NCBI GenBank assembly: GCA_017453255.1
Contig: JAFTKN010000009.1
Location: 1 to 64,000, forward strand
DNA length: 64,000 nucleotides
Reading direction: 5' to 3'
Origin: Clostridia bacterium
GTDB lineage: Bacteria > Bacillota > Clostridia > Oscillospirales > CAG-272
In this document: one piece after another, positions 50,585 through 51,772 of the stretch
How the letters are laid out: each line of letters opens with the position of its first letter
How positions within the stretch are numbered: the first letter of the stretch is position 1
Notes under the pieces: model-generated
Seen by the model: the letters and a program-made list of their open reading frames with translations, nothing else
Told to the model about the DNA's origin: nothing
Databases searched by the model: none
Program-made: the position numbers and the translations under genes

Positions 50585-50777
50585 ATCTTTATTTCCAATC
50601 AAGTTCTGCTATTCTGCAAAAGCAGAGTGATATTTTTACTTTGTAAAAGTGATATTGTTCGCATAGCTCACAGTGATATTCTATTTGCTTATGCATTTTA
50701 AACTGCCGAAGGCAATATCACTGCGAAAGCAATATAACTGAGCATCGCTCAATAGAACTTGCGAAGCAAATAGAACT
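50585..50777. repeat. Hairpin array A with inverted linkers (GTGATATT/AATATCAC)
   Basis: A run of unlike small hairpins (TCTGC-AAAA-GCAGA, GCCGAAGGC, TGCGAAAGCA, GAGC-ATC-GCTC and others) is joined by 8-base linkers. The left half has GTGATATT three times (50627, 50649, 50673). The right half has the reverse complement or close variants (50714, 50731, 50751, 50769). Left CAAGTTCT also matches right AGAACTTG. The whole can fold as one long stem with side hairpins. It contains no gene. Confidence 0.8.
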
Positions 50778-50813
50778 AAAAAACCTCAGTTGATGGTTCA
50801 ACTGAGGTTTTTT
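50778..50813 (-). terminator. Terminator of the tRNA-Leu/tRNA-fMet pair
   Basis: AAAAAACCTCAGTTGA-TGGT-TCAACTGAGGTTTTTT, a long perfect stem directly after the tRNA on the minus strand. Confidence 0.92.
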
Positions 50814-50814
50814 C

Positions 50815-50892
50815 TGGGTGCGGAGGTGGGATTTGAACCTCACGACCTCCGGGTTATGAGCCCGACGAGCTACCAAGCTGCTCTACTCCGCG
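50815..50892 (-). tRNA. tRNA-fMet (anticodon CAT), with an extra base in the T stem
   Basis: Acceptor CGCGGAG against CTCCGCA leaves the C1-A72 mismatch of initiator tRNA, and the anticodon stem has the three G-C pairs next to loop CTCATAA. The T arm reads GTGAGG-TTCAAAT-CCCAC: it pairs only if one A is bulged, so the gene is one base longer than normal. Base 73 is C instead of the usual A. CCA is encoded. Confidence 0.88.
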
Positions 50893-50919
50893 ATATAGAG
50901 ATTCCCTAAATGGGAATCG

Positions 50920-51009
50920 TGGTGCCGATGACCGGACTTGAACCGGTACGGGAATTTCTTCCCAACGGATTTTAAGTCCGTGGCGTCTGCCGATTCCGCC
51001 ACATCGGCA
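50920..51009 (-). tRNA. tRNA-Leu (anticodon TAA)
   Basis: Acceptor TGCCGAT pairs with ATCGGCA. Anticodon loop CTTAAAA gives TAA. A long variable arm (GGGAA...TTCCC) marks a class II tRNA, and CCA is encoded. It is cotranscribed with tRNA-fMet. A hairpin GATTCCC-TAAA-TGGGAATC lies between them (50900-50918), perhaps for processing. Confidence 0.95.
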
Positions 51010-51022
51010 TGTGTGCTTAGTA

Positions 51023-51051
51023 AGTATATCACACATTTTTTACTATGTCAA
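51023..51051 (-). promoter_or_regulatory. Promoter of the tRNA-Leu/tRNA-fMet pair
   Basis: Minus strand TTGACA (51046-51051), 17-bp spacer, TATACT (51023-51028). Confidence 0.85.
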
Positions 51052-51148
51052 CCCTTTTTTTAAAAATTTTTGGGTTCAATCTTTACCATATTATATGCGT
51101 ATATTGTTTGATTTTATACTTCATAAATCAAAAAAATTGAAAAAAGTA

Positions 51149-51177
51149 TTGCATTTTAAATAAACATATGATATAAT
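51149..51177 (+). promoter_or_regulatory. Promoter of tRNA-Trp
   Basis: TTGCAT (51149-51154), 17-bp spacer, TATAAT (51172-51177). Confidence 0.8.
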
Positions 51178-51197
51178 CGTTAAGTCAATAAAAATAT

Positions 51198-51273
51198 AGG
51201 GGTGTAGTTCAGTCGGTAGAACACCAGTCTCCAAAACTGGGTGTCCAGGGTTCGAGTCCTTGCGCCCCTGCCA
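51198..51273 (+). tRNA. tRNA-Trp (anticodon CCA)
   Basis: Acceptor AGGGGTG pairs with CGCCCCT (one G-T). Anticodon loop CTCCAAA gives CCA; the T loop is TTCGAGT and CCA is encoded. A copy of its last 11 bases recurs at 51545-51555, followed by a similar terminator. Confidence 0.95.
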
Positions 51274-51274
51274 G

Positions 51275-51310
51275 AAAAACGACAAAATTCGACAGAATTT
51301 TGTCGTTTTT
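51275..51310 (+). terminator. Terminator of tRNA-Trp
   Basis: AAAAACGACAAAATTC (51275-51290) with GAATTTTGTCGTTTTT (51295-51310), a perfect 16-bp stem with a four-base loop. Confidence 0.92.
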
Positions 51311-51490
51311 CAGTTATATTCGCCTTGCGGCGAGTTATATGCGTAACCGCGTGATATTTGCTTTGCAAGTGATATGCGCTTTGCGCGTTGAAGATTACAA
51401 GGCGAATATAATATCACTGTGAGCGTAGCGAACAATATCACTACGAGTGCAGCGAGTAATATCACGCCGAGCAAAGCGAGGCATATCACT
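51311..51490. repeat. Hairpin array B with inverted linkers
   Basis: The left half has GTTATATT, GTTATAT, GTGATATT and GTGATAT (51313-51375), separated by hairpins CGCCTTGCGGCG, GCGTAACCGC, TTGCTTTGCAA and GCGCTTTGCGC. The right half has AATATCAC three times plus ATATCAC (51410, 51434, 51458, 51483), separated by 16-17-base units built on the theme GAGC-n3-GCGA. The order of linkers mirrors array A. No gene. Confidence 0.8.
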
Positions 51491-51498
51491 AAAATCAC

Positions 51499-51555
51499 AC
51501 GGGTTCAAGTCCGTACGAAAACTCCTCAAAATATCTTTTTTGTCCGCCCCTGCCA
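51499..51555 (+). other. tRNA-like remnant and left copy of the island direct repeat
   Basis: ACGGGTTCAAGTCCGT (51499-51514) looks like a T arm. Bases 51517-51543 are the left copy of a 27-bp direct repeat whose right copy lies at 57742-57768 (25 of 27 identical). Bases 51545-51555 repeat the last 11 bases of tRNA-Trp. Together they suggest the scar of an integration or recombination event at the tRNA. Confidence 0.55.
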
Positions 51556-51594
51556 AAAATCGACAAGTTTCGACAGAAGCTTGTCGATTTTTTT
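51556..51594 (+). terminator. Second terminator resembling that of tRNA-Trp
   Basis: AAAATCGACAAG (51556-51567) with CTTGTCGATTTT (51580-51591), then TTT. Its wording parallels the tRNA-Trp terminator, consistent with tail duplication. Confidence 0.8.
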
Positions 51595-51599
51595 ATTTG

Positions 51600-51772
51600 T
51601 GCCGCAGGTACAACATCATTTGACCGAAGGTCAACATCATTTCGAGCAAAGCGAGAATATCATTGCCGTTTACGGCACAAATAAACGATGTTGCACCTTG
51701 TGCAAATGATGTGCTTCGCAAAGATGTGATGCCCTGCATCAATGAAGTTGCGCTCCGCTCAAACGGAAAGAA
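51600..51772. repeat. Hairpin array C with inverted linkers (AACATCATT/AATGATGTT)
   Basis: The left half has AACATCATTT twice and AATATCATT (51612, 51633, 51656). The right half has ACGATGTT, AAATGATGT, AGATGTGAT and AATGAAGTT. Hairpins between linkers are GACCGAAGGTC, GCCGTTTACGGC, GCACCTTGTGC, TTGCGCTCCGC and similar. It has the same logic as arrays A and B with a different linker word. Confidence 0.8.

Follow-up and report, generated by a model that had tools for sequence, protein, structure and literature searches.

Linker–hairpin arrays at tRNA genes of a Clostridia bacterium as probable solo copies of small S23p-type elements

What are the arrays of short hairpins that lie around the tRNA-Met, tRNA-Leu and tRNA-Trp genes in this DNA, and how did they come to be there? 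An earlier note on the 64,000-nucleotide stretch analysed here (the window) had described three arrays of constant linkers and variable hairpins and regarded them as an unusual class of repeats. All three are found where it placed them (array A, 50627–50776, minus strand; array B, 51313–51489, plus strand; array C, 51592–51760, plus strand), and its description of the class stands. The 8-base linkers run one way in one arm and as the reverse complement in the other, and the hairpins between them are self-complementary stretches of about 9–17 bases. We interpret A, B and C, with a probability of roughly 0.6, as solo copies, unable to move autonomously, of a small kind of selfish element, the S23p type, whose linkers would be recognised by the S23p protein.

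Anatomy of the arrays and their relation to Gut-1

The pattern GTGATAT-N8-20-GTGATAT occurs six times in the window and in none of 20 Markov-resampled sequences. Genome-wide, GTGATATT-N8-20-GTGATAT gives 26 matches, compared with none for the reversed-pattern control, and arrays are abundant both elsewhere in the genome and in its relatives. Folded as single-stranded DNA, each array is more stable than its shuffles (z = -2.3, -2.1 and -2.7). In the other hairpin clusters listed by the earlier note (156–210, 7087–7262 and 53309–53430), inspection by eye revealed no array linkers. A CRISPR array, which would need long repeats and unique unstructured spacers, was rejected, as the note had also concluded: the constant part is 7–8 bases long, the variable part is a hairpin and the orientation flips in mid-array. 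The arrays also differ from REP elements: their hairpins vary between constant linkers, and the Y1 transposase (PF01797) was not found in the genome.

Without the terminator-like hairpin at its 5′ side, a complete element is about 170 bases long. This hairpin is followed by AG, the terminus TTNTATTCGCC, four GTKNTATT linkers with hairpins and a short spacer; the second half consists of the centre GGCGAATANAA and a right arm of four AATATCAC linkers with hairpins. The terminus and the centre pair in a long-range stem of 11 bp. Among 37 elements chosen solely by their CGAATA core, the variable base N of terminus and centre is complementary in all 37 (T-A 13, A-T 13, C-G 11). End-to-centre stems of at least nine exact bases, with other sequences, are present in 38 of 54 arrays spanning nine linker types. 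The long central "fishbone" stem of paired linkers that had been proposed is not supported, as left-arm and right-arm linkers show no covariation; covariation supports the end-to-centre stem instead.

Array A lies on the minus strand, 3′ of tRNA-Met (50815–50892), its insertion hotspot. Between the two is a perfect terminator-like hairpin, H0 (50778–50813, minus strand), with 16-nt arms that are 100% complementary; other elements have a counterpart at the same position. The left arm (50714–50776) carries GTKNTATT linkers at 50769–50776, 50751–50758, 50731–50738 and 50714–50721, with hairpins between them. The centre AAGCAAATAGAA (50679–50690) pairs with the terminus TTCTATTTGCTT (50764–50775), including a complementary variable base, and the right arm (50627–50680) has AATATCAC at 50673–50680, 50649–50656 and 50627–50634.

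The hotspot of arrays B and C is tRNA-Trp (51198–51273, plus strand), and all parts of both elements lie on the same strand. H0 of array B (51274–51311) begins immediately 3′ of the tRNA-Trp CCA. Its left arm (51313–51375) has linkers at 51313–51320, 51334–51340, 51351–51358 and 51369–51375, and its centre CAAGGCGAATATAA (51398–51411) is complementary to the terminus (51314–51327) at 14 of 14 positions. The right arm (51410–51489) contains AATATCAC at 51410–51417, 51434–51441 and 51458–51465, and ATATCAC at 51483–51489. A tail (51491–51555), whose last bases repeat the tRNA-Trp 3′ end (CGCCCCTGCCA), completes the element; a related tail also stands behind the C4/C7 copy of array B. Element C (51555–51808) uses the linkers ACATCATT and AATGATGT in arms on either side of its centre, with H0 at 51555–51592 and a terminus at 51592–51604 that pairs with the centre at 51673–51685. 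A motif ending in AAAAAAGATATNGCC and followed by a terminator (51802–51860, and two loci in relatives) recurs 3′ of tRNAs in the genus.

The arrays had been thought to match no known RNA. An Rfam search at an E-value threshold corrected this: the arms of A and B are relatives of Gut-1 (RF01706), which matches each arm, twice per strand. The matches lie at 50710–50778 (minus strand, 31.8 bits) and 50596–50684 (plus strand, 38.9 bits) for the left and right arms of A, and at 51311–51380 (plus strand, 43.9 bits) and 51406–51491 (minus strand, 27.8 bits) for those of B. These scores of 27.8–43.9 bits (E = 5e-7 to 0.006) are under the gathering score that Rfam sets for the family, 50 bits. The arms align with the full model (positions 1–77), with its three hairpins and constant linkers. 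Seven loci of relatives pass the threshold; arrays with TGAAAT linkers score highest (72.5, 66.1, 63.5, 60.2 and 53.3 bits), and two GTGATAT arrays also pass (53.4 and 51.3 bits). The matches in relatives occur as inverted pairs, which means that the Gut-1 family corresponds to a single arm of an array of this kind.

S23p genes and the linker words

The earlier note had suggested looking for a linked protein family, and one was found. At three loci, one of them on contig C12 of the same genome, the gene after the array belongs to a single family, identified as PF05635/TIGR02436, for which 2rld is the closest solved structure by sequence. S23p, the 23S rRNA intervening-sequence protein, is a homopentamer whose function is not known (PMC4990558). 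The C12 gene scores 99.5 bits against PF05635 and 114 bits against TIGR02436, and the array beside it has the linker of the window. An S23p gene stands directly 3′ of a GTGATATT array there, at four further named loci and at others. Copies A, B and C in the window have no S23p gene. One of the four loci, contig MT835815.1, carries a complete element (tRNA-Arg, array and an S23p gene 83% identical to that of the genome studied here); it is a human faecal contig labelled Bacteriophage sp.

Of the order's 197 genomes, 94 contain PF05635 genes; the genome studied here has two. In 92 S23p gene neighbourhoods of the order, chosen by E-value and not by arrays, an automatic score placed a bipolar array within 300 nt upstream of 52 genes, compared with 1 of 92 control windows. 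A second score gave about 53 of 91 genes with an array and 4 of 361 controls. The upstream arrays often have exactly four linkers per sense, and in a few elements the two arms flank the gene, one on each side. Against our reading, roughly 40% of S23p genes lack an array of this kind, and many of these have short tandem repeats instead. A second S23p clade (EKSFxFAVRIV; five named loci and others) has no hairpin arrays and carries short tandem repeats on both sides, often adjoining tRNA-Leu.

Automatic labelling distinguished nine linker words: GTKNTAT, GTGAAG, ATGAAG, ATGATG, GTGATG, TGAAAT, TGAATTG, GCTAAAT and GATGTT. Mapped onto a tree of 91 S23p proteins, a quick one built from few columns, and with words first read from the same data, linker type changes 9 times, one more than the minimum, compared with 32–40 times in 30 label shuffles. 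A single genome may hold several linker types, and each type then goes with a separate protein clade (T1, T3 and T4 in genome G164; T2, T6 and T8 in G153), so that species history alone is not the explanation of the fit. We consider a true correspondence between linker and protein highly probable. Plausibly, the linkers of the arrays are the heptamers that flank other S23p genes as repeats, here set apart by hairpins.

Arrays and S23p genes also co-occur. PF05635 is found in 36 of 38 genomes with at least three array matches and in 58 of 159 others (Fisher p = 1e-11); the two array-rich genomes in which it was not found are 75% and 78% complete. Element C belongs to the GATGTT type, represented by the proteins of two loci in relatives, and the search of its own genome (97% complete) returned no cognate gene. 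In the scan of named genomes, only 2 of 98 GTGATATT arrays have an S23p gene within 400 nt. This weighs against our reading, as does the result for element C, and action of S23p in trans on most copies is thus an assumption.

DNA-like folding of the hairpins

The 452 hairpins compared are under structural constraint and not simply drifting, with 95% of 2547 stem pairs Watson-Crick. Read in the linker sense, the mismatches comprise 21 G-T and 33 A-C, with no wobble excess on either strand, and 60 T-C/C-T against 2 A-G/G-A, which appear on the other strand as tandem G-A pairs; because the hairpin search penalises every mismatch equally, such ratios are safer than rates. The eight other linker types repeat the pattern in 736 pairs (G-T 3, A-C 4, T-C/C-T 24, G-A/A-G 1) and have no G..A loops in the linker sense. 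The loops are of the form T..C closed by C-G, so that the opposite strand reads cGNAg and cGNNAg. Both are very stable DNA loops. The mismatches and the loops both indicate that it is the strand reading AATATCAC that folds, as DNA, and the structure statistics favour DNA over RNA.

It is nevertheless conceivable that the arrays act as RNA, each arm being a Gut-1 type module bound by S23p in transcripts, with a role in autoregulation or as a 3′-UTR element and with copies spreading as regulatory RNA modules. The arms match Gut-1, past the threshold in relatives, and where an S23p gene follows, the array sits between a terminator and the promoter of that gene. Tandem sheared G-A pairs are stable in RNA as well as in DNA. 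Avd, a protein of diversity-generating retroelements and a relative of S23p, belongs to an RNA-dependent system (PMC10053308). We consider this reading unlikely, as G-U pairs do not exceed A-C on either strand and make up less than 2% of pairs, and GNYA loops, which do not stabilise RNA, constitute about a third of GNNA loops (42 of 137, counted by a pyrimidine at the third loop base; 10 of 22 in the other linker types). In addition, the well-folding strands of the two arms are opposite, so that no single transcript folds both well, and the terminator lies upstream of the arrays. In four S23p genes of the GTGATAT type, the ribosome-binding site, GAGGTGAT followed by A or T, contains part of the linker, which makes autoregulation possible.

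A second explanation holds that template switching during replication yields the perfect hairpins as a by-product and that only the linkers are functional. Perfect stems are both created and repaired in this way (PMC8794818), and the near absence of wobble pairs would fit repair at the DNA level. It leaves unexplained the preference for T..C loops with a closing C-G and the confinement of tandem G-A pairs to one strand in both sets, and we rate it as improbable.

Insertion sites, movement and related systems

Among the 197 genomes of the order, the pattern searches on which this census rests found arrays in 71; some have more than 40 matches, and others of the same family have none. In the named-genome scan, matches come mostly from metagenome genomes of Clostridia and Oscillospiraceae of the ruminant gut; some others (Planctomycetaceae, Spirochaetes and Chitinophagales) look, at the three loci read, like chance hits of a degenerate pattern and were set aside. 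At its left end an array follows a gene on the same strand, starting usually within 40–60 bases of that gene's stop codon or, for a tRNA gene, of its end; the gene to its right has no preferred direction. Insertion falls after the CCA of a tRNA or tmRNA or after genes, and not in a 23S rRNA helix; elements of the GC type sit after protein genes, not tRNAs.

Element C has three more copies in the same genome, 94–96% identical, at tRNA-Glu, tRNA-Thr and tmRNA. At the filled tmRNA site, CCACCA is followed by an element of about 270 bases that ends in CTTCACA, and then by TTTCAATGG. The empty site in congeners G208 and G200 reads CCACCATTTCAATGG, with CCACCA joined directly to TTTCAATGG, so that any target duplication is at most about CA. 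Other congeners have a different array type, or none, at the same point. Several congeners have no array at tRNA-Thr, the flanks in G210 being contiguous across the site, and at eight of the nine congener tRNA-Met loci shown, the 500 nt that follow the tRNA are free of arrays. From the empty sites, the congener comparison and the copies of element C, it follows that insertion is precise, that copies vary among species and that hotspots are shared. At seven loci of congeners, an array type with TATATCATC / GATGATATA occupies the same tRNA and tmRNA ends. At four loci 3′ of tRNA-Met or tRNA-Trp, a different small insert, containing GACTATGCGACAGGAGTGG in some of them, precedes a repeat of the tRNA 3′ end and looks like another small tRNA-targeting element.

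A complete element thus comprises a terminator-like hairpin, four linkers with mini-hairpins, a centre and four opposite linkers, to which autonomous copies add a promoter and an S23p gene 3′ of the array. We propose the following mode of action. Pentameric S23p would recognise its own linker; the mini-hairpins would act as spacers between linkers and, whenever the DNA is single-stranded or supercoiled, would form as DNA structures on the AATATCAC strand. Solo copies would be served in trans by S23p encoded at another place in the genome, contig C12. Insertion is precise, immediately 3′ of the CCA of tRNA or tmRNA genes, where the hairpin of the element would keep a terminator beside the host gene. 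We infer that S23p binds the linkers, acts in trans and takes part in movement. No catalytic site is known for S23p, which counts against our reading in that movement must require a further enzyme. A broader generalisation, to which we give less than even odds, would make S23p a sequence-specific reader of heptamers, with one word per subfamily, on arrays of extruded DNA mini-hairpins, and the core of a mobile system that lacks a recognised transposase or reverse transcriptase.

S23p could instead be a passenger, with a role such as copy control, while a recombinase of the host or of a phage, directed at tRNA 3′ ends, moves the arrays. Insertion after the CCA with a target duplication no longer than about CA does resemble site-specific recombination at tRNA genes, and CTTCACA, at the right end of the element, is similar to the 3′ end of a tRNA. 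We doubt this, since it leaves unexplained why linker sequence tracks the S23p tree and why arrays and S23p genes co-occur, and since GC-type elements lie after protein genes. Least probable is a host function of the arrays in DNA topology, bidirectional insulation or 3′-end protection, as for enterobacterial BIMEs. They are intergenic and lie beside terminators and tRNA genes, and cGNAg-type hairpins extrude easily; against such a role stand their patchy distribution among related species, their presence or absence at orthologous tRNAs and the lack of a preference for convergent genes.

The S23p-type reading would give these arrays a protein partner and the S23p family its likely first nucleic-acid partner; our search, which left most subscription literature outside, found no paper that connects S23p to Gut-1 or to arrays of this kind. 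It brings together two old orphans, the Gut-1 candidate RNA and the pentameric S23p, which has had no assigned function ever since the first descriptions of intervening sequences in rRNA. It accounts for a large unannotated class of repeats in gut Clostridia, makes linker recognition testable through nine words that track the protein tree, and suggests a route by which intervening sequences enter stable-RNA genes.

Several known systems share part of this anatomy. REP/BIME elements with RAYT also consist of inverted hairpin units in many intergenic copies per genome, with hairpins conserved in sequence, whereas here the linkers are constant. Mobilisation of the RAYT/IS200 type was rejected because, of 20 array-rich genomes, 8 gave no match to PF01797, this one included. 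A retroelement of the DGR or retron type using a resident reverse transcriptase was rejected in the same way: PF00078 was not found in 16 of the 20, this genome having a partial match only. Neither enzyme is needed for movement. MITEs are similarly short, non-autonomous and dispersed; their arms are inverted, and full copies with a gene are rare. They differ in that comparison with empty sites reveals at most about CA as a target duplication of the arrays, and that the arrays were not seen to adjoin any DDE transposase. Gut-1 has the same arm anatomy as the arrays in the window, with three hairpins and linkers of 7–8 bases (GUGAAAU), but its model spans one arm only, and the linker in the window is GTGATAT instead. 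It was described as a candidate noncoding RNA, from human gut metagenomes only, in a report whose main text gives neither a function nor a protein partner (PMC2864571).

The wider S23p family offers further parallels. In other families of the phylum, 20 of 27 S23p genes share at least four flanking 7-mers, inverted across the two sides (null 11.5%); within the order, upstream–downstream sharing of 7-mers is uninformative on its own (null 44%). In the same phylum, PF05635 genes lie inside 23S rRNA (three loci) and, less expectedly, inside the RNase P RNA gene (two loci), in both cases flanked by inverted short repeats. Plasmid S23p genes are flanked by perfect heptamer runs, TTAGTGA in more than ten copies in Bernardetia, of the Bacteroidota, and TTCGCAA in Nostoc. 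These runs might relate to the heptamer STRR repeats known in cyanobacteria. The S23p/IVS of Coxiella burnetii has heptamer repeats, GACAGAT, beside its ORF (PMC4990558). S23p/IVS elements differ from the arrays in their site, an rRNA loop in place of a tRNA/tmRNA 3′ end or gene end; in the arrays, mini-hairpins space the heptamers, both arms usually stand together and most copies have no gene. The two share the small selfish insert at a stable-RNA gene, heptamer repeats, which in this genome adjoin an S23p ORF in the copy on contig C12, and complementary ends, the last present here as inverted linker arrays and the end-to-centre stem.
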